From contig NZ_JAFUAG010000014.1 of NCBI RefSeq assembly GCF_017464355.1, forward strand, positions 1 to 64,000: DNA of 64,000 nt. Reading direction: 5' to 3'. The translations under genes and the position numbers were made by a program. The first letter of the stretch is position 1. Every line of letters begins with the position of its first letter. Positions 29,127 to 57,250 of this stretch are shown one piece after another. The notes beneath the pieces are model-generated. The model saw nothing but the letters and a program-made list of their open reading frames with translations, had not been told where the DNA came from and ran no database searches. The stretch comes from Ruminococcus sp. (GTDB lineage Bacteria; Bacillota; Clostridia; Oscillospirales; Ruminococcaceae).

Positions 29127-29226
29127 TCCCAATTTGGTTGTGTATTGTTTCCCCCGCCGAAGGCGGGGGAAACAATACGAAAAAAAAGCCATTCTGTATT
29201 ATCAGCAATACACTTCAAAATTGGGA
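29127..29226 (-). repeat. Dispersed palindromic repeat, copy A (100 bp)
   Basis: Ends are inverted (TCCCAATTT ... AAATTGGGA). On the minus strand it holds a small hairpin GTATT-GCTGAT-AATAC, the block AGAATGGC plus a T run, and a large GC-rich hairpin with TTTCCCCCGCC / GGCGGGGGAAA arms flanked by GTATTG / CAATAC. It lies in the 3' untranslated part of argS, between the stop codon and the terminator. Copies B and C share its sequence. Confidence 0.85.
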
Positions 29227-29240
29227 GAAAAATTTTTAGC

Positions 29241-31010
29241 TTACATACTCTCGGGGCAGTCTATCTTCAGCATACCCAGTATATTGCTGAGTATCTGCTT
29301 AACAGCCAGCGACAGCGAGAGCCTTGCCTGCATAACGTCCTCGGGCTCGCCCTTTATGCGGCAGGCATTGTAGAACTTGTGGTAGAGGGTAGCTATGTCC
29401 ACCACATACTTAGTCACCTTAGCGGGGTCGTAAGCCTTAGCGGCCTCGTTTATGGTCGAGGGCAGATCTGCCATGAGCTTTACCAGCTCCAGCTCCTCAG
29501 ATGTTGTAAGGGCAGCAGCCATATCAGCGGTAAAGGGCCTGGCCTCGATGTTCTCCTCTTTCAGCTTCTTTATTACCGAGCAGATACGCGCATGGGCGTA
29601 CTGTACATAGTAAACAGGGTTCTGGCTGGTGTTGGATATAGCCAGATCCAGGTCAAAGTCGAACTGAGAATTAGGCTCACGCAGGTTGAAGAAGAACCTT
29701 GCCGCGTCAATGGGTATCTCTTCCAGCAGGGTGTTCAGGGTAATGGCCTTGCCCGAACGCTTTGAGAGCTTGTAGGTCTCGCCGTTCTTCACGAGCCTTA
29801 CCATCTGCATGATAACTACGTCAAGCTTCTTTTCGTCAACGCCCAGGGCTGTCATGGCAGCCTTAAGTCTGGGGATATAGCCGTGGTGATCCGCACCGAA
29901 GATATCTATAGCCTTATCGAACTTACGCTCGGCCAGCTTGTTGTAGTGGTAAGCGATGTCAGGCACGAAGTAGGTGGGTATGCCGTTGTCACGCACCAGT
30001 ACCCTGTCCTTCTCGTCACCGAATTCAGTTGTCCTGAACCACAGTGCGCCGTCCTGCTCGTAGGTGTAGCCGCTGGCCTTCAGCTTTTCTATGACCTTAG
30101 CCACCGAGCCGTCGTTGTGCAGTGTGCTTTCCCTGAACCAGGTGTCATACTCAATGCGGTACTTAGCCAGGTCCCTGTGCAGGCCGTCGATGTTCTTGGG
30201 CAGCGCATAGTCAACCAGAGCCTTCTTGCACTCGTCCTCGGGCTGGGCGCTGGCCACCATGCCGTACTCATCAAAGAAATTCTTTGCGTGGGCGATTATA
30301 TCCATACCCAGGTAAACGTCATCGGGCATGGGGAATTCGGGACGGTTGCCGTCATCGCCGTATATCTCCTTGCAGAAAGCGTCCATATCCAGATCTTTAG
30401 CAACTATCTCCTGACCCGCATCGCTGCATATCTGCATATAGCGCAGCCTCAGGGACTTGCCGAACTTCTCTATCTGGTTGCCTGCGTCGTTTATGTAGAA
30501 CTCACGCTCCACATCGTAGCCCGCATATTCCAGCACCGCCGCCAGACAGTCGCCTATAGCGCCGCCTCTGGCATTGCCTATGTGCATGGGGCCTGTGGGG
30601 TTTGCAGAAACAAATTCCACCAGGGCACGCTTGCCCTTGCCCAGCTCGGTCCTGCCGTAATCAGCGCCGTCCTCCAGCACTGCCTTTACCACATCAGCAT
30701 ACCAGCTCTTGTCGTAGAAGAAGTTTATGAACCCGGGGCCTGCTATCTCAACTTTCTCGAAGCAGGTGCCTGCGGTGTCCAGCTTTTCAACTATAGCCTC
30801 AGCTATCTTGCGGGGCGCGTTCCTGAAAGGCTTTGCGCACACCATGGCCGCATTGGTGGAAACATCGCCGTTCTTCGGGTCGGCAGGTGTTTCGATATTA
30901 AAAGCAGGCACAGCCTCAGCAGGGAAGACTTCCTCAGCCACCAGCTGTCCCAGTGCATTCATCACAAGCTCCCTGGCCTGCGAGAATGATTCATTTATCA
31001 GATCGTGCAT
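29241..31010 (-). CDS. argS: Arginyl-tRNA synthetase
   Basis: A 589-residue class I synthetase that charges tRNA-Arg. The N-terminal additional domain is followed by the HIGH motif as HIGNARGGAIGD, after FVSANPTGP (about 120-140). The catalytic core includes YINDAGNQIEKFGKSL and FGADHHGYIPRLKAAM. The KMSKS equivalent reads KLSKRSGKAITL. The C-terminal anticodon-binding helical domain has YYVQYAHARICS. The start is set at 31010, where GGAGG is 8 bp upstream; an ATG 6 bp earlier is too close to it. It is the last gene of the operon that begins with ddl. Confidence 0.96.
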   Translation of the reverse strand: MHDLINESFSQARELVMNALGQLVAEEVFPAEAVPAFNIETPADPKNGDVSTNAAMVCAKPFRNAPRKIAEAIVEKLDTAGTCFEKVEIAGPGFINFFYDKSWYADVVKAVLEDGADYGRTELGKGKRALVEFVSANPTGPMHIGNARGGAIGDCLAAVLEYAGYDVEREFYINDAGNQIEKFGKSLRLRYMQICSDAGQEIVAKDLDMDAFCKEIYGDDGNRPEFPMPDDVYLGMDIIAHAKNFFDEYGMVASAQPEDECKKALVDYALPKNIDGLHRDLAKYRIEYDTWFRESTLHNDGSVAKVIEKLKASGYTYEQDGALWFRTTEFGDEKDRVLVRDNGIPTYFVPDIAYHYNKLAERKFDKAIDIFGADHHGYIPRLKAAMTALGVDEKKLDVVIMQMVRLVKNGETYKLSKRSGKAITLNTLLEEIPIDAARFFFNLREPNSQFDFDLDLAISNTSQNPVYYVQYAHARICSVIKKLKEENIEARPFTADMAAALTTSEELELVKLMADLPSTINEAAKAYDPAKVTKYVVDIATLYHKFYNACRIKGEPEDVMQARLSLSLAVKQILSNILGMLKIDCPESM

Positions 31011-31026
31011 TTTCATTTCCTCCGTT

Positions 31027-31461
31027 TTATCTCAGCTTCACTTCGACCTCTATCTCAAAAAGCCCTAAATAGCTGGAATTTATATCCACCACATAAGAGA
31101 AGAACAGCCTTCCGCCCTTCTCTGTCAGATCATTGACTATCTTCCTGGCCTCAACGCCCACCTCAAAGTTCCCGTAAAGGGTACCGTAGATGCAGTGGTG
31201 CTTTTCGCCCGTGTGTACCACCATGTTTGATGTGACCGAGCCCGTCCTTGACATTATGACTTTACCCGTGCCGAAGCTTTCCAGCCTTGTCACAGCGCCC
31301 TCGTAGCCTGTGGCTTCGCTTTCCTCATACTCTATCCCGAAGCCCTCTTCCGTCACCTCAAAGGTGCCCTGGGACATTACCTCGGTCTGCTCCGCCTCAG
31401 CGCCCTCGCTCTCGAACTGTCGGCTTATGAGCCTGATATCAGCTTCCTTTTTCAAATCCAT
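31027..31461 (-). CDS. DUF1934 (YwiB-like) protein
   Basis: A 144-residue beta-rich protein of the DUF1934/YwiB family with a calycin-like barrel. The family pattern is present: the start of the barrel (IRLISRQFESEGAEAEQTEVM), GFGIEYEESEATGY, HTGEKHHCIYGTLYGNFEVG and the C-terminal LGLFEIEVEVKL. The biochemical role is unknown. The position between murI and argS is informative, because ywiB also precedes argS in Bacillus, so the pairing is conserved over long distances. AAAGGAAA lies before the ATG. Confidence 0.88.
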   Translation of the reverse strand: MDLKKEADIRLISRQFESEGAEAEQTEVMSQGTFEVTEEGFGIEYEESEATGYEGAVTRLESFGTGKVIMSRTGSVTSNMVVHTGEKHHCIYGTLYGNFEVGVEARKIVNDLTEKGGRLFFSYVVDINSSYLGLFEIEVEVKLR

Positions 31462-31470
31462 TTTCCTTTC

Positions 31471-32289
31471 CTAGGTGTTCAGACTGCACTTTTCCACAGT
31501 GCCCGAAAAGCTCTCTCCCAGAAAACGCTCCACGTTCTCCGAGAACAGCTCAACGCTGTCGGTGCAGTAGAGCTGCTGCCTGCCCGCTTCCTCTCTCTCA
31601 GCCAGTTCATCGTTGAAGGTCAGGGTCTTCACCGCGAACCTTGCCAGCTCTGCACTGGAGGATATGAGCTTCACATCAGCCCCCATTATGTCGGATATGA
31701 CATCTGCCAGATGAGGGTAATGGGTGCAGCCCAGTATAAGGGTGTCCACCTGTTCACGCTTCATGCATTCAAGGTATTCCTCAGCGAAAAATCTGGTGGG
31801 AGGACAATCCTTCCCCACATAGCCGTTTTCCACCAGGGGCACGAACATGGGACAGGCCTTGCCCACTACCTTTGCGCCCGGGGCAATGCTGCGTATGACC
31901 TTGCCGTAGCTGCCGCTGCGGATAGTGGCCCCTGTGGCGATAACTCCTATTTTCCCGTTTTTGGTGGCGGCGCAGGCCGCATGGGCCGCAGGTATTACCA
32001 CACCGCTGTAGCTTGGCTCTGTCTTCCCCGAAAACTCAGGGCTAGACATTATCACCGATGAAGCAGTGCCGCAGGCCACCAGTATCATCTTCACATTGAA
32101 ACCCCGCAGGAACTCCATATCCTGGGAGGTATAGCGTGCTATCGTTTCCTTGCTCCTGGTGCCGTAGGGCACGCGGGCGGTGTCGCCCAGGTACACGATA
32201 TCCTCATGGGGCAGCAGCTTAGCCAGCTCCTTGACACAGGTAAGTCCGCCAACGCCCGAGTCAAACACGCCTATGGGTGCATTATTCAT
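31471..32289 (-). CDS. murI: Glutamate racemase
   Basis: A 272-residue cofactor-independent racemase giving D-glutamate for peptidoglycan. All catalytic landmarks are visible: FDSGVGGLT (about 9), YLGDTARVPYG, the first catalytic Cys in VACGTAS (about 73) and the second in GCTHYPHL (about 185). It overlaps the end of ddl by 8 bp, so the two are translationally coupled. Having ddl and murI together places D-Ala-D-Ala and D-Glu supply under one promoter. Confidence 0.96.
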   Translation of the reverse strand: MNNAPIGVFDSGVGGLTCVKELAKLLPHEDIVYLGDTARVPYGTRSKETIARYTSQDMEFLRGFNVKMILVACGTASSVIMSSPEFSGKTEPSYSGVVIPAAHAACAATKNGKIGVIATGATIRSGSYGKVIRSIAPGAKVVGKACPMFVPLVENGYVGKDCPPTRFFAEEYLECMKREQVDTLILGCTHYPHLADVISDIMGADVKLISSSAELARFAVKTLTFNDELAEREEAGRQQLYCTDSVELFSENVERFLGESFSGTVEKCSLNT

Positions 32290-33367
32290 AATCCACTTCC
32301 GATCTGTCGAGCGCCAGCTTTATCAGCCTGTCCTCCTGCTCGGCATAGCTTATACCGTCGTGAGCCATAAGCATGGGGAACATACTTATCTTTGTGTGCC
32401 CCGGAAGTGTGTTTATCTCATTGAGTATTACCTCGCCGTCCTCTCTCAGGAAGAAATCCGCCCTTGAAAGACCGCTGCAGCCCATGGCCTTGTAAGCCTT
32501 CACAGCCGTCTTCTTCACGGTTTCCATCACTTCCTCGGAAACTCTTGCGGGTATGTAGGTGAGGGAGCCCTCATCGTTGTACTTTGCGTCATAATCATAG
32601 AATTCGTTGGCAGGGCTTATCTCGCCTACCGTTGAAGCGAAGGGCTCATCGTTGCCCATTACGGCGCATTCAAGCTCGATGCCCTTTACCTCCTGCTCGA
32701 CAATGACCTTCTGGTCGTGGGAGAAAGCAGCCTTTATGCCCGCTTTCAGCTCCTCGTAGTTGTGTGCCTTCGATATACCCACAGAAGAACCGCAGTTAGC
32801 AGGCTTTACATACATGGGGTAGCCCAGCTCCTGCTCCATTTCCCTGCAGCGTTCCTCCAGCTTTGCCATATCGCGGTAGATCATGCTTTGCCACTTTGCG
32901 GTCTTTATGCCGTGGGCTTCAAGTATAGTGTGGGTAACGTCCTTGTCCATGCAGCAGGCAGATGAAAGCAGGTCGCAGCCCACAAAGGGTATCTCGCCCA
33001 TCTGGAAAATGCCCTGTATAGTGCCGTCCTCGCCGTTCTTGCCGTGCAGTACGGGGAACACAGCGTCCACCTTGACATTTGAGTAGGTGCCGTCGTCCTC
33101 CAGCTGTATAAAACCTCTGTGAACGGGGTCGGGGCTGAAAATGCAGGCTGTGTTGTCAGGATGCTCTGCCCACTTGCCGTTCTCGATGTCCTCCACACTG
33201 CCGATATATCTCAGCCAGTGGCCTTTCTTGGTAATGCCGATGCAAATGACCTCATAGCGGTCGGAATTTTCATTGATACTGCGGATAACGTGTGCCGCCG
33301 ATACCACGGAAACATCATGTTCGTTTGATTTTCCGCCGAATACCACGGCGATCTTAAGCTTTGCCAT
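32282..33367 (-). CDS. ddl: D-alanine--D-alanine ligase
   Basis: A 361-residue ATP-grasp ligase making D-Ala-D-Ala for peptidoglycan. The N-terminal FGGKSNEHDVSVVSA, the central glycine loop NCGSSVGISKAHN, VKGIELECAVMG and the C-terminal NEINTLPGHTKISMFP fit the Ddl family. The last motif has the Tyr/Phe region of a D-Ala-D-Ala rather than a D-Ala-D-Lac enzyme only by inference. It is the first gene of ddl-murI-DUF1934-argS, with a good promoter 42 bp upstream. Confidence 0.95.
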   Translation of the reverse strand: MAKLKIAVVFGGKSNEHDVSVVSAAHVIRSINENSDRYEVICIGITKKGHWLRYIGSVEDIENGKWAEHPDNTACIFSPDPVHRGFIQLEDDGTYSNVKVDAVFPVLHGKNGEDGTIQGIFQMGEIPFVGCDLLSSACCMDKDVTHTILEAHGIKTAKWQSMIYRDMAKLEERCREMEQELGYPMYVKPANCGSSVGISKAHNYEELKAGIKAAFSHDQKVIVEQEVKGIELECAVMGNDEPFASTVGEISPANEFYDYDAKYNDEGSLTYIPARVSEEVMETVKKTAVKAYKAMGCSGLSRADFFLREDGEVILNEINTLPGHTKISMFPMLMAHDGISYAEQEDRLIKLALDRSEVDYE

Positions 33368-33408
33368 AACAAATACGTCCTTTCGTATACAGATTACGTC
33401 AATTTAAT

Positions 33409-33437
33409 ATTATACCACATATTTATGATAATTGCAA
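33409..33437 (-). promoter_or_regulatory. Promoter of the ddl operon
   Basis: TTGCAA (33432-33437), 17-bp spacer ending in TGTGG, TATAAT (33409-33414), all on the minus strand. Confidence 0.85.
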
Positions 33438-33530
33438 ACGATTATCCCAAAACATAAAAATTTTACATTTAAGAAAAACTGTAAATAAAAGGCAAAAGCG
33501 GACAGCCGCTGCCGTCCGCCGTGGATATCC

Positions 33531-34730
33531 TTATTCTTCCGCCTTTTCAGCAGGCTTTTTCAGCACTATCTCGTAGAGGGTCTTCTGTATGCCCGCAGGG
33601 TCATCTATCAGGCTGATGACACCGCCGTGGGCTTCAACTATCCTCTTGCTTATGGCCAGCCCCAGCCCCGAGCCCTTGTTGGCAGTACGGGATCTGCTGC
33701 CCACCACGAAAGGCTCAAAAATAGTCTCCCTCAGCTCCTTGGGGATACCCTTGCCGTTGTCGCCTATGTGTATGACCACCGCATTTCTGTCATCGGTGAT
33801 AGAGGCGAAAATGGTGGTGCCCGCCTTGTTGTGCCTGAAGGAATTCGTTATCAGGTTCTCGAACACCCGCTTGAACTGCTGATGGTCAAAGGTGAAGATT
33901 ATAGGCTCATCGGGAAGCTCTGCCTCCAGCTCGAAGCCTGCCAGGTCAAGCTCCTCATACTTCATAGCCAGGTATTCGCGGAAGTATTCGCAGAGGTTCC
34001 CCTCCTTCATCTCAAAACCGAACTGAGGGTGATCCAGCTTTGAATATTCGTGGAAAGTATCTATCAGCTCCGCTACCATTTCCGTCTTGGTGTAAATGGC
34101 ATCAAGGTATTTCTGCTGAGCCTCCTCATCTGTCACACCGTCGCTGAGAGCCTTGGCATAGCCCCGTATGACGGTTATGGGCGTTTTCAGGTCATGGGAG
34201 ATATCCGCCGTCATCTGCCGCCGCTGACCCTCCAGCCTGCTCCGTGACTGCTCACTTTTCTGCAGTCTTTCGACCATGCGGTTGTAGCTGTGGCATATGC
34301 TGTCGAACTCCTTTATATCGGAGTTTATTGTCAGCACCTCCCAGTCCTCCACCTCCACATCGGATATGCTGTCCAGTGCGGTCTCGAAGCTGTGCAGCTC
34401 ACTGTGGACTTTTTTTAGTATTATCCACATGAACATGGTGATAGTCAGCACCATGATGATTATCTGGAATATCAGGTCGTAGCTGTTGTATTTCCATATA
34501 ACGTCCTGGGTAGCAGGAGAATACTCGTTCAGCAGCGCCTGATCTGCCATCTCCATAGTGGCGCCCTCATGCTCGGAAATATATATCTGCTTTGCCTCTT
34601 CGATGAGTTTTGTCTGCAATATATCAGATGTGATATTTATAGCTATGATTATGAACAGTATCATCATCACCACATTACTGATGACAAAAAAAGATAAACT
34701 TCGCCTTCCTTTTTTTCTAACTTTTTTCAA
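33531..34730 (-). CDS. Membrane sensor histidine kinase
   Basis: A 399-residue kinase. TM1 (about 12-34) and TM2 (about 84-107, IIIMVLTITMFMWIIL) enclose an extracytoplasmic segment of about 50 residues. A HAMP-like region precedes the HisKA box (ADISHDLKTPITVIRGYAKA, phospho-His about 177). The HATPase boxes follow (NLITNSFRHN, GDNGKGIP, GSGLGLAISKRI). It overlaps the response regulator gene by 14 bp and forms a two-component pair with it. The signal is unknown; the pair lies upstream of the ddl operon on the same strand, so a cell-wall role is possible but not shown. Confidence 0.92.
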   Translation of the reverse strand: MKKVRKKGRRSLSFFVISNVVMMILFIIIAINITSDILQTKLIEEAKQIYISEHEGATMEMADQALLNEYSPATQDVIWKYNSYDLIFQIIIMVLTITMFMWIILKKVHSELHSFETALDSISDVEVEDWEVLTINSDIKEFDSICHSYNRMVERLQKSEQSRSRLEGQRRQMTADISHDLKTPITVIRGYAKALSDGVTDEEAQQKYLDAIYTKTEMVAELIDTFHEYSKLDHPQFGFEMKEGNLCEYFREYLAMKYEELDLAGFELEAELPDEPIIFTFDHQQFKRVFENLITNSFRHNKAGTTIFASITDDRNAVVIHIGDNGKGIPKELRETIFEPFVVGSRSRTANKGSGLGLAISKRIVEAHGGVISLIDDPAGIQKTLYEIVLKKPAEKAEE

Positions 34731-35415
34731 TTTTGTATCCCAGTCCTCTCACTGTTTTAAGATACTTGGGGTTCTTGCTGTCGTCCCCAAGCTTTTCGCG
34801 GAGTTTTGAGATATGCACCATCATGGTATTGTCGTCATTTTCAAAATATTCACCGTTTATGCGCTCGTATATCTGCGCCTTGGTGAAGACCCTCCCGGGC
34901 TTCTCCATAAGCGTTGCCAGTATCTTGAACTCGGTGGGGGTCAGCTGTATCTCCTCGTCGTTCTTTTTCAGGGTGAACTTCTTGGTGTCCAGCGAAAGCT
35001 CGCCAACTACCAGTGTTTCGCCGCCTGCTGTGCCTGCGCTGCCGTCCAGCTTGTACTTCCTGCGGAGATTTGACTGCACCCTTGCCACTACCTCCAGGGG
35101 GTTGAAAGGCTTGGTAATGTAGTCATCAGCACCGATATCCAGCCCCAGTATCTTGTCGCTGTCAGAGTTCATGGCAGACAGTATGATTATGGGTATATTG
35201 CTTGTCATGCGTACCCTTTTGGTAAGCTCAAAGCCGTTCAGCTCAGGCATCATTATATCGAAGATAGCCAGGTCGGGCTTGTGGGTGCCCAGCAGTTCAT
35301 AAGCCTGCCTGCCGTTGTCAGCGGCCAGTACAGTGAAGCCTGCATTTTCAAGGTAAAGGCGCAGTACCTCCTGTATATCCGTATCATCTTCAGCGACCAG
35401 TATTTTGTATGACAT
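34717..35415 (-). CDS. OmpR/PhoB-family response regulator
   Basis: A 232-residue regulator. The receiver domain has AEDDTD, the phosphoacceptor Asp in AIFDIMMPELNG (about 53) and the Lys in YITKPFNPLEV (about 103). The C-terminal winged helix (about 135-230) has LTPTEFKILATLMEKPGRV, TMMVHISKLREKLG and VRGLGYKIE. The start at 35415 has AAGGAG 9 bp upstream; an ATG 9 bp earlier lies too close. It is the first gene of the pair with the kinase at 33531. Confidence 0.95.
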   Translation of the reverse strand: MSYKILVAEDDTDIQEVLRLYLENAGFTVLAADNGRQAYELLGTHKPDLAIFDIMMPELNGFELTKRVRMTSNIPIIILSAMNSDSDKILGLDIGADDYITKPFNPLEVVARVQSNLRRKYKLDGSAGTAGGETLVVGELSLDTKKFTLKKNDEEIQLTPTEFKILATLMEKPGRVFTKAQIYERINGEYFENDDNTMMVHISKLREKLGDDSKNPKYLKTVRGLGYKIEKS

Positions 35416-35450
35416 GGTGTACATCTCCTTGTCTTATCTCTTTCGGGAAT

Positions 35451-35479
35451 ATTATAGCATATTTTTTCCCGTTCGTAAA
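35451..35479 (-). promoter_or_regulatory. Promoter of the two-component pair
   Basis: Minus strand TTTACG (35474-35479), 17-bp spacer, TATAAT (35451-35456). Confidence 0.75.
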
Positions 35480-35660
35480 GACCTTGCGGTGAAATTTCCC
35501 TCTGCCCCCCCCGCAGGCAGACTTTGTTCCCGCTGCCCGAAAACAGTGTCTCTCGCTCACATCTGCCTGTGCCTGCGGGTCCTTGAATGCTGGGGGTCGG
35601 TTTTTTGTACTTGAATTCTGTACCCTAAAATGTACCATTAATAATGTAATAAATATGTAA

Positions 35661-35689
35661 TTGACAAATCGCGTTCATTGTTTTATAAT
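35661..35689 (+). promoter_or_regulatory. Promoter for the DUF4272 gene
   Basis: TTGACA (35661-35666), 17-bp spacer, TATAAT (35684-35689). Repeat copy B lies between this promoter and the ribosome site. The rest of the 376-bp intergenic region (35480-35660) shows no gene. Confidence 0.85.
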
Positions 35690-35711
35690 ATTTTTAGACA
35701 TATTAAATAAA

Positions 35712-35770
35712 TCCCGATTTTGAAGCGTATCGCTGATGATACAGAATGGCTTTTTTTCGTATTGGGATTT
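35712..35770 (+). repeat. Dispersed palindromic repeat, copy B (short form, about 59 bp)
   Basis: It matches copy A from TCCCGATTTTGAAG through GTATC-GCTGAT-GATAC, AGAATGGC and a 7-T run, then jumps to ATTGGGATTT. The GC-rich hairpin arm is missing. The small stem has C-G where copy A has T-A, so pairing is kept. Here the unit lies in sense in a 5' leader. Confidence 0.8.
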
Positions 35771-35791
35771 AAATGATCAGAGGTGATACCC

Positions 35792-36460
35792 ATGAAAACT
35801 CCCGCGGAGAGAAAAGCTGAAAACGATAAGAAGATAGCTTCACTGGATATAACCGTGAACACTCACCTGCCCACTGTTGAGGGCGAGGACGAGGTCACGC
35901 TTAAAAGCCTTGATGATATCTGCGGCCGTGCGGTGGCAGCACTGCTCGTGATACAGCTGGCACTGGACTGCAGCAGAGGCGGGTACGATGAGAGCATTGA
36001 GATCATCAGCGGCGCCCTGGAGCGCTACGGTGTAAAGGGATATCTCAATGCTGCGGAAAAGCAGGTGTTCGACAATAATTATCCCGAACAGGCTCTGCCT
36101 GCGGTGGTGTGGGAATATGAGTGCTACTGGTCGCTGGTATGGGCGCTGGGACTTATCGGTGACGATGAGCTTGAAGCCGTCGCTGAGATATGCAACTGCG
36201 AGAAGGCCATAAACCTGGTGGTATCCTGTGAGGATATGGCAGCTTTCAGGGAGAAATGCACCCTCAGGAGCAAGAGCGAAATACTGGATAAGCTGGACTT
36301 TTTCTACCGCCTGCACTGGGCTTGTGTGGAAAACAGGGTGAACTCGGGTGGCGCCTCCATAGGTTACATGAATGAAGAAGTAGTCATGGAAAGGCGCAGG
36401 GGTCTTGAATGGCTGGTCTCTGAGGAAGCTGACTGGTTCGATATATCCCTTGACACCTGA
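35792..36460 (+). CDS. DUF4272 domain protein
   Basis: A 222-residue soluble protein of the DUF4272 family, whose role is unknown. Visible features are RAVAALLVIQLALDCSRGG near residue 50, VVWEYECYWSLVWALGLI (about 112-129), and a C-terminal RRRGLEWLVSEEADWFDISLDT. These Trp-rich ends are what I recall of the family. The ATG at 35792 has AGAGGTGA upstream. It is the first gene of a plus-strand series with the kinase-like gene 32 bp downstream. Its leader contains repeat copy B. Confidence 0.78.
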   Translation: MKTPAERKAENDKKIASLDITVNTHLPTVEGEDEVTLKSLDDICGRAVAALLVIQLALDCSRGGYDESIEIISGALERYGVKGYLNAAEKQVFDNNYPEQALPAVVWEYECYWSLVWALGLIGDDELEAVAEICNCEKAINLVVSCEDMAAFREKCTLRSKSEILDKLDFFYRLHWACVENRVNSGGASIGYMNEEVVMERRRGLEWLVSEEADWFDISLDT

Positions 36461-36492
36461 TAAATAAAGAAGTATCGGAAGGAGAATAGAGT

Positions 36493-49682: not shown

Positions 49683-49858
49683 TCGGGGCAGATGTATTGG
49701 GCAATACAGATAAGTATGTTAAAAAGATTTGTACAGAGTGATACAAAAAATATTGACTTATTGTATAAATCAGATAAAGGCACTTGATAATTGTTAACCT
49801 TTTATAGGTGAATGCTACGAAAATCAGACCTGCGGCTGTTGTTTGTCTAAAATTTGCG
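49683..49858. other. Spacer between trmD and the HPr promoter
   Basis: No gene seen. It holds a perfect hairpin TGTATTG-GG-CAATACA at 49693-49708 without a T tract, and AT-rich sequence. With the HPr leader (49888-49978) the gap is 296 bp. Confidence 0.4.
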
Positions 49859-49887
49859 TTGACTAAAGAGGAGTTGTCGGGTATAAT
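49859..49887 (+). promoter_or_regulatory. Promoter for the HPr gene
   Basis: TTGACT (49859-49864), 17-bp spacer, TATAAT (49882-49887), leaving a leader of about 85 nt. Confidence 0.85.
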
Positions 49888-49978
49888 ATATTATGTGAAC
49901 AGGGAGGAAAAACACCCCGCTGCTCACCAAGTTCTATGAAAATGTTTAAGACTTTATAGGGATTGGAGAGATCGCATC

Positions 49979-50251
49979 ATGTTACAGAATACTGTTGTTG
50001 TTCAGAATCAGGTAGGCCTGCACGCACGTCCTGCAACTTTCTTCATTCAGAAGGCTAATGAGTTCAAGTCCTCTATCTGGATAGAGAAGGAAGACAGAAG
50101 AGTAAATGCAAAGAGCCTGCTGGGTATCCTCTCACTGGGTATCGTTGGCGGCACCACTATCAAGATCATCGCTGACGGCGCTGACGAGGAAGAGGCTGTT
50201 AAGGGTCTGGTTGACCTGGTAGACAGCGGCTTTGCTGAGGACGCAAGATAA
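49979..50251 (+). CDS. ptsH: HPr-family phosphocarrier protein
   Basis: A 90-residue HPr. The phosphoacceptor His15 lies in QVGLHARPAT and the regulatory Ser46 in AKSLLGILSLGI, both in the usual context, so it can serve both phosphotransfer and HPr kinase control of CcpA. Crh-like proteins lack His15, so this is HPr rather than Crh. No EI or EII genes adjoin it. In Ruminococcus relatives, which may have few PTS transporters, a mainly regulatory use through Ser46 is possible but not shown here. It is a single-gene transcript with promoter and terminator. Confidence 0.93.
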   Translation: MLQNTVVVQNQVGLHARPATFFIQKANEFKSSIWIEKEDRRVNAKSLLGILSLGIVGGTTIKIIADGADEEEAVKGLVDLVDSGFAEDAR

Positions 50252-50273
50252 TAATAGCTTAGTGGATAAAGTG

Positions 50274-50301
50274 ACAGGCTGTTCCTTCGGGAACGGTCTG
50301 T
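50274..50301 (+). terminator. Terminator of the HPr gene
   Basis: A 12-bp stem (ACAGGCTGTTCC with GGAACGGTCTGT, TTCG loop), then TTTTGTTTTT. Confidence 0.9.
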
Positions 50302-50310
50302 TTTGTTTTT

Positions 50311-50581
50311 ACGGCGCAGGGAAGTTCCGGGGGGCTTTTCACATAATGCTCAAAAACAAATAAGCAAAATGTTCAAAGGTTACAAAACAATTACCTGCCC
50401 ATAGAATTTCATTGGTCGTTTTTGTGGATATTAAACAATAAACCTTTTAATTTTACATTGTGTTCACACATTAAAGAGGAAAATATGTTACAATTTGTAA
50501 CATATCAGGGCATAAAGGATAGCGCCCTGAGGTTCGGTAAAAAGTTTTTTTGGAAAATCCGCACTTTTTACTATAAAACAC
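50311..50581. other. Gene-less AT-rich stretch before the CdaR-like gene
   Basis: No convincing gene. A 63-codon ORF here (50422-50613) has no ribosome site and odd composition. A hairpin TCAGGGC ... GCGCCCTGA lies at about 50504-50525. With the leader of the next gene the gap totals about 436 bp. Confidence 0.4.
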
Positions 50582-50610
50582 TTGCAAAATTCTTTGTTTT
50601 TTGTTATAAT
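50582..50610 (+). promoter_or_regulatory. Promoter for the CdaR-like regulator
   Basis: TTGCAA (50582-50587), 17-bp spacer, TATAAT (50605-50610). Confidence 0.82.
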
Positions 50611-50687
50611 TAATGTAAGCGAATGTTTTGCCGTCAAGAAGGGCAAAACTACTGTGAGAATAAATTGCAAGTAGAGGGGATCAAATT

Positions 50688-51773
50688 ATGTCAAACAGAT
50701 TATTTCAAAGCGTTGTTCATCAGATGCGAGACACTATCGATTGCGTGATCGGCGTCATCGACGAAACTGCGACCATAATCGCCTGCTCTGAGCTGGCACA
50801 GGTCGGCACGACCAATGAGTTCGTATCTCTCGATCTGGGAGACTCCCATGATATCTTCGTGCGCGACGGCTATACCTATAAGCCTTTCGGCGCCCACATG
50901 AAGCCTGACTATGCAGTGTTCGTTGAGGGCACTGATGAGGTGGCTGCAAAGTATGCCAGCATACTGGCTATAACTCTGTCCAGTATCAAGCAGTACTATG
51001 ATGAGAAGTACGATCGCAACAACTTCATCAAGAATGTCGTTCTGGATAACGTGCTGCCCGGTGACGTTCACGTCAAGGCGAGGGAGCTGCATTTCAGCTC
51101 TGACATCTCCAGAGTCGTTCTGCTCATAAGGATAGTATCTTCCAATGACGTTTCCGCTTACGACGTTATACAGAACCTGTTCCCCGATAAGAACAAGGAT
51201 TTCGTGTTCAATATCACTGAGAGCGATATCGTGCTGGTAAAGGAAGTTGCTGCAGGCGTTGAGACCAAGGATCTCGAAAAGCTGGCAAGAAGCATATCCG
51301 ATACTCTGTCCAGCGAGTTCTATACCAGGGTAAACGTTGGTATAGGTACTGTTATCGAGGGTGTCAGGGATCTGGCTAAGTCTTTCAAGGAGGCTCAGGT
51401 GTCTCTTGAAGTCGGCAAGGTCTTCGATACTGACAAGAATATCGTTTCCTATGACGACCTGGGTATCGCAAGGCTGATTTATCATCTGCCTACTACCCTG
51501 TGCGAGACTTTCCTGAAGGAAGTCTTCAAGAAGGGCTCCATAGATTCTCTGGATCACGAAACACTGTTCACTATACAGAAGTTCTTTGAGAACAACCTGA
51601 ACGTTTCTGAGACATCGAGAAAACTGTTCGTACACAGAAATACTCTGGTGTACAGACTTGAAAAGATCAAAAAGCTCACGGGTCTTGACCTGAGAGAGTT
51701 TGACCATGCGATCATCTTCAAGATCGCTCTGATGGTAAAGAAGTATCTTTCCGCCAATCCGGTCAAATTCTGA
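50688..51773 (+). CDS. CdaR/PucR-type transcriptional regulator
   Basis: A 361-residue regulator. The N-terminal about 130 residues look like a small sensor domain (DTIDCVIGVIDETATIIACSE). A middle GGDEF-like fold of the CdaR type follows (about 140-280, VNVGIGTVIEGVRDLAKSFKEAQ). The C-terminal PucR helix-turn-helix has NLNVSETSRKLFVHRNTLVYRLEKI and ends at about residue 350. Relatives respond to sugar diacids or other metabolites. It lies directly upstream of ftsEX, with 57 bp between, but no functional tie is known. AGAGGGG lies before the ATG. Confidence 0.85.
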   Translation: MSNRLFQSVVHQMRDTIDCVIGVIDETATIIACSELAQVGTTNEFVSLDLGDSHDIFVRDGYTYKPFGAHMKPDYAVFVEGTDEVAAKYASILAITLSSIKQYYDEKYDRNNFIKNVVLDNVLPGDVHVKARELHFSSDISRVVLLIRIVSSNDVSAYDVIQNLFPDKNKDFVFNITESDIVLVKEVAAGVETKDLEKLARSISDTLSSEFYTRVNVGIGTVIEGVRDLAKSFKEAQVSLEVGKVFDTDKNIVSYDDLGIARLIYHLPTTLCETFLKEVFKKGSIDSLDHETLFTIQKFFENNLNVSETSRKLFVHRNTLVYRLEKIKKLTGLDLREFDHAIIFKIALMVKKYLSANPVKF

Positions 51774-51830
51774 GGAAAAGCCTATGAGCAGCGGACGCCT
51801 GCGTCCGTAAACTTTAAGGCGGTGTAAATT

Positions 51831-52520
51831 TTGGTAGAGTTTCAGGACGTGTCCGTCACCTATAATTCAAGCGGTGTGGACGCGCTAAACAAAGTCAATC
51901 TTAAGATCAATGACGGCGACTTCGCGTTCGTTGTCGGCCCCTCGGGTGCGGGCAAATCCACCCTCATCAAGCTGGTACTGAAAGAGATAGACGCGACCAG
52001 CGGTACAGTCCTGGTAAACGGCTTCAACCTCAGAAAGCTGAGGAGGAGCAAGGTGCCTGCGCTGAGAAGAACTATCGGCGTGGTGTTCCAGGATTTCAGA
52101 CTTATACCCACAATGACGGTGTATGAGAACGTGGCTTTCGTGCTGCGTGTTATAGATGCTCCCGCAAAGTATATCAGGAGCAGAGTACCCTATGTTATCA
52201 GCCTTGTAGGGCTTTCTGACAAGGCAAAGTGTTACCCCACCGAGCTTTCGGGCGGTGAGCAGCAGCGTGTGGCGCTGGCGAGGGCTCTTGTCAATGACCC
52301 CAAGCTGATAATCGCGGACGAGCCTACGGGTAATATCGACCCCGCACTTTCCTATGAGATAGTTGAACTGCTCAAGGGTATAAATGAGTGCGGCACGACC
52401 ATACTCATGGTCACTCATGAGCATGACCTGGTGCGCTATTTCGGCGGACGTATAATCAATATCAATAAGGGTAGTATTGATTTCGACGAGGTAGTAGGAG
52501 GTGCGCAGAGTGAAAGTTAG
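51831..52520 (+). CDS. ftsE: Cell-division ABC ATPase FtsE
   Basis: A 229-residue ABC ATPase of the FtsEX complex, which couples ATP use to activation of cell-wall hydrolases at the septum. Walker [13 protein letters not shown] is at about residue 36, the Q-loop [21 protein letters not shown] follows, then signature [15 protein letters not shown] and Walker [14 protein letters not shown]. The start is TTG (51831) with AAGGCGG 8 bp upstream; no ATG fits before [10 protein letters not shown]. It overlaps ftsX by 11 bp. Confidence 0.95.
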
Positions 52521-53415
52521 CAGCTTCCGTTACCTGGTACATCAGGGCGTTTCAGGCATCTGGAAAAACAGGATGATGACCTTCGCCTCCTTCTGCATAC
52601 TGCTGGTAAGTCTGCTCATGGTAGGTATCGCAAGCCTTACGGCTATCAACCTTACCAGGATAATCAGCGGCATCGAGGATAAGAGTGAGGTCGTGGTCGT
52701 TATAAACGACAACGCTGATAAGGAGAACGAAAAGCAGCTCAAGGAGCAGCTGGCAGCTATCCCGAACATCAATTCGATAGAGCTTTACAGCAAGGAAGAA
52801 GCCTGGAACGGTATGCTCGACAGCATGACCGAGGAGGAAAGGGCGTTCTTCAAGTACGCTGACGAGAACCCTCTGCCTGATACTTACAGACTTACTGTAA
52901 AGGATATTGAGCTGATGAGCGAAACTACCGCGCAGATCGAAACTCTGGATTTCGTTGATTCGACCCAGTCCCCTACGACCTTTGCGGACGTTCTTATCAG
53001 TATCAGGAGGATATTCACCATAATCGCCACAGCAGTTGTGGCTGCCCTTGTGGTGGTGAGCCTCGTTATCATCTCGAATACTACGAGAGCCAGCGTTTTC
53101 GCAAGACGTAAAGAGATCAATATCATGAAATACGTCGGCGCGACCAACGCATTTATCAGGATACCGTTCTTCGTTGAGGGCATGATCGTGGGCATAGTTG
53201 CCGCCATAGGCGCACTGCTCATGACTAAGTTCGCTTACGAAGGTGTGTATAATATCTTCAATGATGACTCGGCTATCTGGGTCGTTATGGGAATGAAGAA
53301 GCTCTATTCCTTCAAGGAACTGCTGTTCCCCGTGAGCGTATCATATCTTGCAGCAGGCGCTGTTATCGGCGCGTTGGGCACTTCGATAAGTACAGGCAAG
53401 CACCTTAAGGTGTAA
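52510..53415 (+). CDS. ftsX: Cell-division membrane protein FtsX
   Basis: A 301-residue permease-like partner of FtsE. It has one membrane helix near 22-44, an extracellular domain (about 55-165), and three further helices, the first near IFTIIATAVVAALVVVSLVII. ARRKEINIMKYVGATNAFIRIPFFVEGM is the typical coupling motif after the second helix. The GTG at 52510 is chosen because AGGAGG is 8 bp upstream; a GTG 9 bp earlier overlaps that site. A terminator and then two M23 hydrolase genes follow, which are the likely targets of FtsEX. Confidence 0.95.
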   Translation: MKVSSFRYLVHQGVSGIWKNRMMTFASFCILLVSLLMVGIASLTAINLTRIISGIEDKSEVVVVINDNADKENEKQLKEQLAAIPNINSIELYSKEEAWNGMLDSMTEEERAFFKYADENPLPDTYRLTVKDIELMSETTAQIETLDFVDSTQSPTTFADVLISIRRIFTIIATAVVAALVVVSLVIISNTTRASVFARRKEINIMKYVGATNAFIRIPFFVEGMIVGIVAAIGALLMTKFAYEGVYNIFNDDSAIWVVMGMKKLYSFKELLFPVSVSYLAAGAVIGALGTSISTGKHLKV

Positions 53416-53436
53416 GCATGATAATTTTGACAACAT

Positions 53437-53471
53437 ATGGCAGGGGACGGGGGACACACGTTTCCTGCCAT
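53437..53471 (+). terminator. Terminator after ftsX
   Basis: ATGGCAGG pairs with CCTGCCAT, then TTTGTGTTT. The next gene has a possible TATAAT at 53519-53524 without a clear -35. Confidence 0.7.
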
Positions 53472-53561
53472 TTTGTGTTTAACAGGCAAAACTGACAAAT
53501 TGTGTAAAAATGCTGCGGTATAATATATACAGAGAGCCGCAGTCTGACGGAGGAATTCTTA

Positions 53562-55157
53562 ATGAATAAACTGACAGGCTTTAAGAAGCTCGTCGCGTGT
53601 ACCGCGGCGGTGCTTATCTGTGCGTCTGCTTTTTCGGGCGCGGACAGCTTTGTTATGAAAGCAGATGTTGCAAATGCAGCCAGTAAAGAGCTGAAAGAAA
53701 ACAAGCAAAATATAACCGATACACAGGCAAGCATCGAAGAGCTTATCGCCAAGCAGGAAGAACTTGATAAAAAAATAGCCGAGACCAAGGACGATATCTC
53801 CGCTGAGGAGGAAAACAAGGCGGCTATCGAGGAGCAGATAATCACTGTTCAGAAGACTGTAATGTCCCTGACAGATGTCATCTCTCAGACTAACGACGAG
53901 ATAAAGGCTCTTGAAGCTTCTATCGCCGAAAAGGAAGTGCAGGTAGAGGAAAAGCACGAGCAGATAGTCGAAGGCGTAGGCGAATTCAAGGAAAGACTGA
54001 AAGCGATGTACGTCGCAGGCAACAATACATATTCAGATATCATCATCGGTTCTTCCGACTTCTATGATATGCTCATGAAAGTCGAGCTGGTCAAAAGGGT
54101 GGCTGAGCACGATGATAATATGATAGACAGCCTTATCGAACTGAAGGATCAGTACGAGGCTGATGAGGCTGAGCTCAATGCCGAAAAGGCTGAGCTTGAA
54201 GTAAAGCAGGAAGATCTTGAGACCAAGAAACAGGCTCATGAGAACCAGAGGGACAAGCTGCAGATGCTGTTTGAAGAAAGCGAGATCGCTCTGGACGACA
54301 TGAATGCCAATAAGGAGATCTACGAGAACAACCTGGCCATGATCGAGCAGAACAAGAAAGAGTTTGAAAAGGAACTGGACGCTCTGTTTGAAGAGAGAAT
54401 GGCCATACAGGCAGAGGAAAAGAGGAAAGCTGACGAGGAGAAGGCTCGTCAGGAAGAATTACGCAGACAGGAAGAAGAACGTAAACGTCAGGAAGAGGAA
54501 AAACAAAGACAGGAAGAAGCCGAGAGGGCAAGACAGGAAGCTGAAAAGGCAAATCAGGCAGCTGCTGAAAGTCAGTCGGACAGCAGCTCTGATAACAGCA
54601 GCAGTACCGACAGCAGCAGCATAGATACTTCGGAGAGCATAGCTTCCGAGGTGACTGAGAACCTGTCAGACACCCCCTCCGATAACCTGAGCAAGAATGC
54701 CCAGAACGGCTATCAGGAGATATCCAGGTTCACCTGGCCCGTACCCGGTCATTACCATGTCTCCTACGGCTTCGGCTACAGAAATGCAGGTGTGCTGACG
54801 GGCAACCACGGCGGTATCGACATCTACGACGCCAACATCTACAATGCAGAGATAGTTGCGGCTGACGCAGGTACTGTCATAAGGGTGGAGAACTATTGTA
54901 CCCATGACTTCGGCAAGAACTACGACTGCGGCTGCGGCGGCGGTTACGGCAGATACTGCATCATCGATCATGGTGACGGTGTATGGACAGTTTACGGCCA
55001 CGCAAACAATATCGTTGTATCCACAAACCAGTACGTTGAAAAGGGTCAGGTCCTTGGCTATGTTGGCTCTACAGGCCATTCCACAGGCCCCCACACCCAC
55101 TTCGAGGTACAGATCAACAGAGTAAAGCAGGACCCCGCTAACTACCTTTCATACTAA
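53562..55157 (+). CDS. Coiled-coil M23 peptidoglycan hydrolase (EnvC/PcsB-like), first copy
   Basis: A 531-residue secreted protein. A signal peptide (to about residue 40) precedes a long coiled coil (about 45-335) containing a central hinge (VGEFKERLKAMYVAGNNTY, SDIIIGSSDFYDMLMKVEL). A charged RQEEERKRQEEEKQRQ stretch and a Ser-rich linker (SQSDSSSDNSSS) follow. The C-terminal LytM/M23 domain keeps the zinc ligands: H and D in NHGGIDIYD, and HTHFE in GPHTHFEV. A Cys-rich insert (CTHDFGKNYDCGCGGGYGRYC) is unusual in the domain. By position after ftsEX it is the probable FtsEX-activated septal hydrolase. Confidence 0.9.
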   Translation: MNKLTGFKKLVACTAAVLICASAFSGADSFVMKADVANAASKELKENKQNITDTQASIEELIAKQEELDKKIAETKDDISAEEENKAAIEEQIITVQKTVMSLTDVISQTNDEIKALEASIAEKEVQVEEKHEQIVEGVGEFKERLKAMYVAGNNTYSDIIIGSSDFYDMLMKVELVKRVAEHDDNMIDSLIELKDQYEADEAELNAEKAELEVKQEDLETKKQAHENQRDKLQMLFEESEIALDDMNANKEIYENNLAMIEQNKKEFEKELDALFEERMAIQAEEKRKADEEKARQEELRRQEEERKRQEEEKQRQEEAERARQEAEKANQAAAESQSDSSSDNSSSTDSSSIDTSESIASEVTENLSDTPSDNLSKNAQNGYQEISRFTWPVPGHYHVSYGFGYRNAGVLTGNHGGIDIYDANIYNAEIVAADAGTVIRVENYCTHDFGKNYDCGCGGGYGRYCIIDHGDGVWTVYGHANNIVVSTNQYVEKGQVLGYVGSTGHSTGPHTHFEVQINRVKQDPANYLSY

Positions 55158-55212
55158 CTACGTTTCATTTTCCTGATAGTTCTTTTCTTCGCTTCCCGTA
55201 AAGGAGAGTATG

Positions 55213-57009
55213 ATGAATAAGCGCAAAGGCTTTTTTAAGATCATGTCAATGGCTGCGGCACTGTGTGTGACTTTCACAGTGGCAGGCAGCACCATTGAAG
55301 CCACAAAGGCTGACGCATATTATGACGGCAGCGATTACAGCGGCTATGACTACGGCGGCTATGGCACCGATTACGGCTATGGCTATGACAGCGGCTATGG
55401 CTACGACAGCGGTTATGGTTACGACAGCGGCTACGGCTATGACGGAGGCTATGGCTATGACAGCGGCTACGACGACGGAAGCTATGACTATAACTCAGGC
55501 TGGACAGACCCCAACGCGGGCTGGACAGACCCCAACGCAGGCTATGACAGCCAGACGGGCTGGACGGACCCAAATGCTGCGGCACAGACCGATGACAGCA
55601 CGGCTGACAGCGAGAACGGTACTTCCGCCGATGATGTCTACGAGCCGCTGACCGTCACGGATATATCAGGCTATGCCGAAGCACTCAGGGATATCATCGG
55701 CAAGCAGTCGGAGCTCAAGGTGGAGATATCCGATGCGGACACCGCTATCCGTGAGGAAGAAAAAATGCTCAAAAGCATAAAGAAGCGCACCGAAGAGCTG
55801 GATAACGAGCTTTATATACTCAACTGCTCCATGTCCATGCTGGAAGTAAGGGTGGGCAGCAACAAACGTGAGCTTGACAGGATAAACGAGCAGATAGAGG
55901 ACGGCACCGAGCGCCTGAAAAAGCGCCTGAGAGCCATGTATCTCTCAGGCTCCGATTCCTATACCACCGTGCTGCTTGAGTCGGACAGCTTCTATGATGT
56001 GCTTATGCGCATGGAGCTGATAAAGCGTGTGGCCGAGCATGATGACAATATCATAGATGAGCTTTACGGGCTGCAGGAAAAGGTCGAGGTAAAGCAGGCT
56101 GACCTTGATGCACAGCAGGCTGAGCTTGATAAGCAGTATGCCCTCTTTGATACAAAAAAGGCAAAGCTGGATGAGATATATAATTCCTCCGCCCAGGCTA
56201 GGACGCTGCTGGAGGAAAAGCAGAAAAAGCTGAAGGAGCAGGAGGCTCAGTTCAAGCTTGAAAAGATGAAGGCAGCCGAGGAACTCAGCGGTCTGCTGAA
56301 ACAGCCCTCGGGTACCACCTCCTTCGATGAAGAGGTCGCAGCCACCATGGTGCTGGCCGATGAAAGGCTGGAGGAGCTGCATGAAGAGATACGCGAGCGT
56401 ATCAAAAATGACGAAGAACTGGGCGAGGACGAGCCGACCTATACCTTTGCATGGCCCGTGCCCCTCTGCTATACGATAAACTCAGGCGTGGGCGCCCGCT
56501 GGGGCACCTACCACAAGGGCATAGATATCGGCGGCGAACACGGCTATCCTATCCATGCCAGCGAAACAGGTACGGTCGTAAAGATCAATACCTCCTGCGT
56601 GCATGACTACGGCAAGTATGAGAGCTGCGGCTGCGGCGATGGCTACGGAAACTACGTCATCATCGACCACGGCAATGATTTCATTACGCTGTACGGCCAC
56701 ATGACCCAGGTGCTGGTGGAGGTCGGCGACCAGGTAAAGCAGGGCGATGTCATCGGCCTTATGGGCTCAACAGGCTTCTCCACAGGCGACCACCTGCATT
56801 TCGAGATACGCTATCAGGGCTATGTGCTCAACCCCACCTACTATGTTGACCTGACTATCAACACCGAGGAAGGCGACGAAGCATCGCGCTTCAGGGACAG
56901 GGATGATAACGAGCCTGACAGGGAACTGACGGTTGTTGAACGTGAGCCTGAAAATGCCGACAGCACCGTGACCCTTGAAACGGAGAACGACAGCTCGGGC
57001 AGTTCATGA
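55213..57009 (+). CDS. Coiled-coil M23 hydrolase, second copy, with Tyr-Gly repeats
   Basis: A 598-residue paralogue of the preceding gene. After the signal peptide there is a low-complexity region (about 35-95) of GYGYDSGYGYDSG repeats and three GWTDPNAG units, absent from the first copy. The coiled coil (about 150-390) contains the same hinge (RLKKRLRAMYLSGSDSY, LESDSFYDVLMRMEL). The M23 domain has KGIDIGGEHG (His, Asp ligands), the same Cys-rich insert (CVHDYGKYESCGCGDGYGN) and GDHLHFEIRY. A charged tail follows. The tyrosine-rich repeats could hold the protein in the wall or at the surface. The ATG at 55213 has AGGAGAG upstream. Confidence 0.9.
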   Translation: MNKRKGFFKIMSMAAALCVTFTVAGSTIEATKADAYYDGSDYSGYDYGGYGTDYGYGYDSGYGYDSGYGYDSGYGYDGGYGYDSGYDDGSYDYNSGWTDPNAGWTDPNAGYDSQTGWTDPNAAAQTDDSTADSENGTSADDVYEPLTVTDISGYAEALRDIIGKQSELKVEISDADTAIREEEKMLKSIKKRTEELDNELYILNCSMSMLEVRVGSNKRELDRINEQIEDGTERLKKRLRAMYLSGSDSYTTVLLESDSFYDVLMRMELIKRVAEHDDNIIDELYGLQEKVEVKQADLDAQQAELDKQYALFDTKKAKLDEIYNSSAQARTLLEEKQKKLKEQEAQFKLEKMKAAEELSGLLKQPSGTTSFDEEVAATMVLADERLEELHEEIRERIKNDEELGEDEPTYTFAWPVPLCYTINSGVGARWGTYHKGIDIGGEHGYPIHASETGTVVKINTSCVHDYGKYESCGCGDGYGNYVIIDHGNDFITLYGHMTQVLVEVGDQVKQGDVIGLMGSTGFSTGDHLHFEIRYQGYVLNPTYYVDLTINTEEGDEASRFRDRDDNEPDRELTVVEREPENADSTVTLETENDSSGSS

Positions 57010-57021
57010 TCTTGATATATG

Positions 57022-57043
57022 AGGGAGCAGGCAGCTGCTCCCT
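57022..57043 (+). terminator. Terminator of the second M23 gene
   Basis: AGGGAGCA pairs with TGCTCCCT, then TTTTTGTT. Confidence 0.9.
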
Positions 57044-57069
57044 TTTTGTTATGCGGGAAAAGCCAAGGG

Positions 57070-57098
57070 TTGACTTAGCCCTCGGAATATGTTATAAT
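57070..57098 (+). promoter_or_regulatory. Promoter for ilvB
   Basis: TTGACT (57070-57075), 17-bp spacer, TATAAT (57093-57098). The leader to ilvB is about 170 nt and contains repeat copy C. No T-box core or leader peptide rich in Leu/Val/Ile was seen. Confidence 0.85.
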
Positions 57099-57152
57099 TA
57101 TATAAATTTTTACCTGTGAGGAAAATGCTTTCTGCGGTAAAGAAAAATAGGA

Positions 57153-57250
57153 TCCCAGTTTGGTCGTGTATTGTTTCCCCCGCCGAAGGCGGGGGAAACA
57201 ATACTAAAAAAGCCATTCTGTATCATTAGCAATACACTTCAAAATTGGGA
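57153..57250 (-). repeat. Dispersed palindromic repeat, copy C (98 bp)
   Basis: Near-identical to copy A: TCCCAGTTTGG ... AAAATTGGGA ends on the plus strand, the GC-rich hairpin (TTTCCCCCGCC / GGCGGGGGAAA) with GTATTG/CAATAC flanks, and AGCCATTCTG plus GTATC-ATTAGC-AATAC. It fills most of the ilvB leader, ending 29 bp before the start codon, and in the transcript it reads antisense to copies A and B. Confidence 0.85.

Follow-up and report, generated by a model that had tools for sequence, protein, structure and literature searches.

Background

Among the palindromic repeats of bacterial genomes, the enterobacterial repetitive intergenic consensus (ERIC) is a palindromic repeat without the classical target duplication, and the repetitive extragenic palindromic (REP) sequences are palindromes that also lack a target duplication and are moved by a RAYT (Y1) transposase; genomes of Escherichia coli hold copies of both. 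The miniature inverted-repeat transposable elements (MITEs) of bacteria are characterised as short elements with terminal inverted repeats and target direct repeats that lie in intergenic DNA and fold in transcripts (PMC10969869), and the element studied here resembles them in these features. We analysed 64,000 nt of DNA from Ruminococcus sp. (assembly GCF_017464355.1, contig NZ_JAFUAG010000014.1, positions 1 to 64,000; the whole stretch is called the window below), in which a palindromic repeat occurs in three copies, A, B and C. A preliminary description had taken the three for an ERIC- or MITE-like family that folds as DNA or RNA and shows a compensatory base change. We are highly confident of a joint reading in which the repeat is a MITE moved in trans by a transposase, carries a passive hairpin whose arms are re-matched by template switching, and persists mostly outside long open reading frames (ORFs), often near terminators.

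Results

Structure of the element and target duplication

From fetched loci, 172 elements were gathered by a pattern that requires a left end and a right end within about 135 nt, a collection that misses diverged and truncated copies and copies of the B type. Genome labels in this collection follow the locus numbers; the set labelled G018etc comes mostly from the metagenome-assembled genome (MAG) RUG10798 (G018), with Ruminococcus albus 8 loci L191, L198, L199, L206 and L222 and other MAGs added. The element is about 100 bp long and has the form (C)TCCCAATTTTGAAGTGTATTG...CACAACCAAATTGGGA(T), the outer bases being given in parentheses. In canonical orientation the consensus of the window's own genome reads TCCCAATTTTGAAGTGTATTG CTGATGATACAGAATGGC T7 CGTATTGTTTCCCCCGCC TTC GGCGGGGGAAACAATAC ACAACCAAATTGGGA, and the ends of the family are also written TCCCAATTT...TGTATTGC. 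The terminal inverted repeats are imperfect and 21 bp long, the left and right ends agreeing at 18 of 21 positions in that consensus. Core lengths in the collected set are 46-124 nt, too short for a transposase gene, and the element therefore has no coding capacity.

Outside the ends lies an 8-bp direct repeat, which is perfect in 99 of the 172 elements and identical at 7/8 positions or better in 140 (34 of 49 for own-genome copies alone). The per-base identity of these flanks is 87.5%, against 37% when they were randomly re-paired (200 shuffles, maximum 41%), and the adjoining base outside the repeat agrees in 43% at one flank and in 18% at the other; a duplication of 9 bp, the first impression, was rejected when counting gave 8 bp. 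The targets are A+T-rich, with A or T as the final target base in 170/172; C precedes the element in 153/172 and T follows it in 166/172. With terminal inverted repeats, 8-bp target duplications, many dispersed copies and empty sites, the family is MITE-like, as one half of the preliminary assignment had it.

Short forms of 46-79 nt that keep both ends were found 37 times, 33 of them with duplications of at least 7/8 and 4 without. The junction of the copy B type, CGTATTGGGA, occurs in seven copies (four in the own genome, three in RUG10798), each with the interior typical of its genome. Because the same junction occurs with different interiors, we suggest that the copy B type arose by repeated deletion at the ATTG microhomology flanking the hairpin; the copies may instead share an older origin.

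Empty sites

Flanks were joined after removal of the element and one repeat, and were aligned to unoccupied copies of the site. The element at L170 of RUG10798, which lies inside a second repeat family (see below), gave a gapless junction against unoccupied L157, L103 and, in R. albus 8, L165 (the same place as L072), and the element at L212 of the same MAG, also inside the second family, gave one against unoccupied L156, L141 and L137. L127 likewise agrees with unoccupied L103. For the own-genome insertion L018 there is an empty counterpart in RUG10798 (L131; 71% identity, gapless junction). At L050/L114, L136/L057, L160/L008 and L145/L246 or L199 the junctions gave no clean alignment and speak neither for nor against insertion. 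Comparison of occupied and empty sites, a check proposed in the preliminary description, thus revealed precise insertion when loci of the own genome, RUG10798 and R. albus 8 were compared.

Family size and host range

When the own genome was searched with copy A, at least 40 near-full-length matches of 92-100% identity were obtained (40 of 127 candidates scored). An end-pattern search gave 114 matches there at no more than 1 mismatch, the 21-nt end pattern gave 88 + 83 = 171 at no more than 3 (reversed pattern 2 + 0), and AGAATGGCTTTTT with at most 1 mismatch gave 28 + 38 matches against 5 + 5 in the control. From the 171 end matches, with two assumed per full copy and one per short form, the own genome has roughly 85-100 insertions in 3.48 Mb, an estimate rather than a count.

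Of 29 genomes of the genus, 10, among them the own genome, contain a match to copy A with an expect (E) value of 0.001 or better, and 12 of 27 match the degenerate end pattern at no more than 2 mismatches. R. albus 8 (G004) and RUG10798 (4.1 Mb) also carry the element, the latter with 423 degenerate-pattern matches at that threshold, a copy number that is a burst in one lineage; G001 and G002 (2 and 5 contigs) had zero end-pattern matches. The wider family yielded matches at no more than 1 mismatch in 11 of 396 genomes. The values 11/396 and 12/27 are upper values for true carriers, because five single matches (L249 and L250 in the family search; L288, L290 and L291 in the genus search) look like chance in coding sequence. 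A search of plasmids and phages gave no result, and viral contigs gave 0 matches in one search and 3 in another, each with a single end only. Further copies, which the preliminary description proposed to look for, are thus many in the own genome and its Ruminococcus relatives.

The copies in the window

The three repeats are present where they had been placed, A and C as full-length elements on the minus strand and B as a short form on the plus strand. The limits given earlier for A (29127-29226) and C (57153-57250) are right, and the end of B, put at 35770, is actually 35767. The features that the copies were said to share are real, namely the inverted ends, the small stem and AGAATGGC with its T run, as is the GC-rich hairpin nested in GTATTG/CAATAC in A and C.

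29126-29227, minus strand: copy A, full-length element (core 29127-29226 plus one outer base per side; canonical strand minus)
29142-29178: copy A, GC-rich perfect hairpin, 17-bp arms and 3-nt loop
29196-29211, minus strand: copy A, small stem GTATT-GCTGAT-AATAC, with an exceptional U-A closing pair
29118-29125 (aatatttt): copy A, target-duplication remnant; partner 29228-29235 (aaaaattt), 6/8 identical, decayed
29114-29086, minus strand: terminator-like hairpin; copy A separates it from the stop codon of the arginyl-tRNA synthetase gene at 29241-31016 (minus strand)
35712-35767, plus strand: copy B, short form of 56 nt that lacks the GC hairpin and the inner part on the right; junction CGTATTGGGA with ATTG microhomology
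35703-35710 (ttaaataa): copy B, target duplication; partner 35769-35776 (ttaaatga), 7/8
35661-35689: 12/12 sigma-70-like promoter, followed by copy B and the start of a DUF4272 gene (ATG at 35792)
57152-57251, minus strand: copy C, full-length element (core 57153-57250; canonical strand minus)
57168-57204: copy C, GC-rich perfect hairpin, 17-bp arms and 3-nt loop
57144-57151 (aaaatagg): copy C, target duplication; partner 57252-57259 (aaaataga), 7/8
57070-57098: 11/12 sigma-70-like promoter, followed by copy C and the start of a gene for an acetolactate-synthase-like thiamine pyrophosphate (TPP) enzyme (57280-58917)

Predicted RNA folds have z values of -5.9 to -7.4 for the long copies A and C on either strand, and z = -1.6 for copy B. 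A search of the window against Rfam found tRNA only, and a relaxed Rfam search with a 300-base stretch around copy A gave 22 matches, all below the gathering scores. Elsewhere in the window, at 63137-63479 and 8787-9729, repeats read by eye lie within coding-like sequence; we take them to be acidic repeats followed by dockerin-like units, and a duplicated zinc-ribbon-like segment.

Placement and association with terminators

Gene context, ORFs and terminators were called mechanically. No reading frame spans the element by 60 bp per side in 131 of the 172 cases, and 10 elements lie within a reading frame of at least 250 codons. A terminator-like U-tract lies no more than 30 bp from the restored junction in 30/170 cases (13/49 in the own genome) versus 89/2000 controls (Fisher p 2e-9); after matching for A/T runs the counts are 21/100 versus 194/2000 (2.5-fold odds) and 10/70 versus 82/2000 (3.9-fold). 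In 25 of 31 terminator-proximal cases the start of the U-tract precedes the far edge of the duplicated target by 4-20 nt.

This spacing, together with an excess that persists after A/T-run matching, speaks for true target choice of intrinsic terminators by the moving machinery. Purifying selection, however, likewise favours the 3' ends of genes, the targets are A+T-rich regardless, and the terminator and ORF calls are mechanical. True target choice is accordingly a serious possibility that we place somewhat below an even chance, and the excess may instead reflect the survival of harmless insertions. Insertion next to promoters was rejected as a rule (20/164 elements downstream of promoter-like sites versus 510/3000 controls), although copies B and C sit there. 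Of 65 insertions between tandemly arranged genes, 42 have their canonical strand opposite to that of the genes (p 0.025, uncorrected).

Search for the transposase and a second repeat family

Transposase searches were restricted to five families in 8 to 29 genomes each (UPF0236 29, ISL3 8, IS1595 8, IS256/Mutator 12, DDE_Tnp_1 13), and ends were checked at every match listed. At none of these loci were matching ends found within 1.5 kb per side (less at contig ends). UPF0236 elements make 9-bp duplications; as a partner the family was rejected, with one weak match in 29 genomes (G026, contig 133) that scored as ISL3-type too and with locus L103 lacking the ends. The sole DDE_Tnp_1 match of the own genome (L321, 1468-2445, contig 33) encodes a 325-aa transposase, presumably IS5-like, with flanking repeats TAAGGCAACACCGCA. 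Perfect ends 2123 bp apart at L140 in RUG10798 turned out to be two separate elements with genes between them, which we take to be pheA- and ispF-like. End pairs 0.7-3.5 kb apart numbered 22 in the fetched loci; where no near partner was obvious, the pair looked like diverged copies or independent elements. The transposase of the family may have been lost or may not have been sampled.

In three other genera (g71, g36 and g28), different noncoding cargos lie between similar ends, with 8/8 duplications at L253, L267 and L257 and poor or unclear ones elsewhere, e.g. at L262 and L248; because of these shared ends, one transposase lineage may have served many cargos.

The cargos themselves are unrelated and about 100 to 420 bp long, and are enclosed by similar 22-nt ends at L253/L228, L229/L267, L262, L257, L259, L292 and L296. 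These loci belong to three other Ruminococcaceae genera and to G025 and G015 of the own genus, and some of the cargos contain GTGCATTGTG-type repeats or terminator-like hairpins.

A second MITE-like family, with ends TATGACTATCCCTTTAGCACACCA / TGGTGTRTCAGCGGGATAAYCACA (TATGACTATCCC...GGGATAATCACA) and a GC hairpin of its own, was found in R. albus 8, RUG10798 and G026 (L072, L085, L087, L093, L220, L222, L223, L298 and others). Its 76 copies from fetched loci show an 8-bp target duplication with 86% per-base identity; a length of 163 bp is common, and the 25 copies listed range from 111 to 217 bp. The two families nest in both directions. Four IS1595-family loci (two in R. albus 8, one each in RUG10798 and G063) carry a repeat resembling the ends of the second family, which lies about 10 bp past the end of the gene in L280, L281 and L283; no left end was found beside these four loci.

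IS1595-adjacent repeats: L280 2270-2293; L281 2160-2183; L282 612-635; L283 387-410

These repeats next to the end of the gene suggest that IS1595 moves the second family. Since both families share the duplication size of 8 bp, the present element might be moved by an IS1595-family transposase as well. Its ends, however, have only a short ATCCC in common with the IS1595-adjacent repeat, no IS1595 gene stands beside them at the loci examined, where the four IS1595 loci carry second-family ends instead, and IS1595 was not found in the own genome (assembly 91% complete). We consider such a mover unlikely, and an IS1595-like partner for the present family is a guess.

Base changes in the small stem and the GC-rich hairpin

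The preliminary description had quoted the small stem as GTATT...AATAC in copy A and GTATC...GATAC in copy B, and had seen in it a compensatory base change. The letters are correct as quoted, and the compensatory change was not borne out. In an alignment of 52 long copies (46 own-genome, 6 from G026; 49 distinct), the disputed pair (columns 20-27) is U.G in 47 of the 49 distinct copies, the two exceptions being copy A with U-A and L032 with C-G. Because U.G is the prevalent state, A and B are each one independent step away from the wobble, A through a change in one partner and B through a change in the other, and what appeared as a single paired event came from comparing two derived copies without the rest of the family. 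The paired base change is a coincidence. Two-sided changes are absent from all 5 pairs of the small stem and from every pair of the outer stem in this alignment, and occur in 0/670 and 0/1206 cells, respectively, in the larger set of 134 copies from which the 52 were drawn (the elements of length 95-104 among the 172), for which genome labels were used only to split own genome plus G026 from the rest.

The GC-rich hairpin behaves differently in the same 134 copies, with 15 two-sided cells versus 2.2 expected from the single-arm rate, of which 13 are still paired; for 5 of these 13 (U-A to A-U and G-C to U-A, two change types) there is no possible G.U route. In the 52-row alignment 8 two-sided cells fall in 5 of 17 hairpin pairs, versus a shuffled mean of 1.6, and 0 of 500 shuffles, which ignore relatedness, scored as high. 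Single changes comprise 71 that break a pair and 31 that leave G.U, so that protection of the pairing is not strong. Loop inversion, with GAA or GCA replacing TTC or TGC in the 3-nt loop, was seen in 13 of the 135 copies examined, and in L057 an inverted loop accompanies a left end that has the right-end form.

Of 121 recognised loop triplets, 118 are TTC, TGC, GAA, GCA or TAC, i.e., GNA on one strand. Triloops of the d(GNA) type are unusually stable in DNA, and such loops may favour extrusion of the hairpin. A UUCG tetraloop was rejected, the register leaving a loop of 3 nt. According to two reports, template switching between inverted repeats in yeast has arm homogenisation with spacer inversion as its signature (PMC8604942), and RNA hairpins can be created and maintained by template switching (PMC8794818). 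Because loops are inverted and pair-breaking single changes outnumber those leaving G.U, template switching between the arms fits better than selection on RNA, and the hairpin covariation is probably mechanical. The covariation test proposed in the preliminary description is thus positive in the GC-rich hairpin only, where template switching is the better explanation, and negative in the small and outer stems.

A selected RNA element, in which the hairpin would act in mRNA leaders or trailers (in stability, as an RNase III target or in regulation) and its pairing would be kept by selection, accords with the very stable folds of the long copies on both strands, with the position of B and C between strong promoter-like sites and start codons and of A between a gene and its terminator-like hairpin, and with two-sided hairpin changes above chance for which a G.U route is possible in 8 of the 13 paired cells. 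Elements are nevertheless not enriched downstream of promoter-like sites (the 20/164 versus 510/3000 given above), pair-breaking single changes exceed those leaving G.U, the small and outer stems are without two-sided change, tandem gene pairs contain both orientations (42 opposite, 23 same) and Rfam gave no match. We regard selection on RNA as very improbable.

Discussion

We propose that the element was moved by a transposase that worked on its ends in trans; because the duplication is fixed at 8 bp, this enzyme would be of the DDE type. The central GC-rich hairpin would be passive cargo, whose arms template switching and slippage during replication may re-match, at times flipping the loop or deleting the hairpin, and such re-matching would yield RNA-like covariation without selection on RNA. 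The insertions that survive would for the most part lie away from long reading frames, many of them next to the U-tract of a terminator; such DNA may be favoured by the transposase, or an insertion into it may simply do no harm.

Several observations weigh against this reading. Duplications fall below 7/8 in 32 of 172 elements, copy A (6/8) included, and none of the five transposase families was found beside matching ends within the 1.5 kb or less covered per side. The 13 paired two-sided cells reduce to 7 distinct changes, so that related copies were counted repeatedly, and the G.U route is available to the 8 cells mentioned. When the partners were slid by +1 column, which keeps relatedness, 5 two-sided cells in 3 pairs were still obtained, so that the excess of hairpin co-change is real but modest. 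Template switching is inferred from comparison of copies, with no parent-offspring pair showing it, and the regions in which the window copies stand, leaders or trailers, are probably transcribed, so that an effect at the RNA level is conceivable.

A more far-reaching version has the TCCCAATTTnGnnnTGTATTGC ends and the 8-bp duplication define a transposon lineage of Ruminococcaceae, present in four genera with unrelated noncoding cargos, with a transposase of an unrecognised or untested kind that prefers the U-tracts of intrinsic terminators, and the hairpin as a case of template switching alone mimicking covariation; taken as a whole, we find this decidedly unlikely. Kinship with ERIC- or REP-like repeats, suggested by a palindromic, multicopy element mostly outside long reading frames and by the preliminary description's "ERIC-like", has next to no probability, since the 8-bp target duplication, present here with terminal inverted repeats, decides against it and 20,395 E. 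coli records (distant mode, E 0.01) contained no match.

The element is of an ordinary kind, a MITE with a misread base change, probably mechanical hairpin covariation and a testable terminator association. An attractive lead that proved wrong, a compensatory change in a novel RNA, is thereby replaced by a mobile element defined by its ends, duplication length, host range and differences in copy number. Its many similar copies allow selection for pairing to be separated from mechanical re-matching of palindrome arms; the hairpin covariation is of a sort that a structure finder could take as evidence of an RNA. The over-representation at U-tracts can be tested, and might explain a high copy number at little harm. 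With B and C lying between promoter-like sites and the start codons of the DUF4272 and acetolactate-synthase-like genes, expression differences between strains can be checked there directly.

No description of this family was found in the literature searched (MITEs in Ruminococcus, the end strings, terminator targeting), in which subscription coverage is thin. From the bacterial MITEs described, the present element differs in having no identified parent insertion sequence and in the long GC-rich hairpin between its ends. ERIC, an intergenic palindromic repeat of about 100 bp, is similar in these traits, and the present family is set apart by its fixed 8-bp target duplication and by being unmatched in E. 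coli. The second repeat family, apparently linked to IS1595-family transposases, has the same duplication length, a GC hairpin as cargo and the same host genomes; its terminal repeats are different, and only its end was seen beside a transposase gene. RUP, BOX and SPRITE of Streptococcus pneumoniae, compared by description only (PMC3049150), are likewise small multicopy repeats of Firmicutes that fold, and RUP and BOX share with the present element terminal repeats and target duplications. SPRITE, from that other organism, is itself terminator-like, whereas for the element described here the tendency is to lie next to a terminator-like hairpin.

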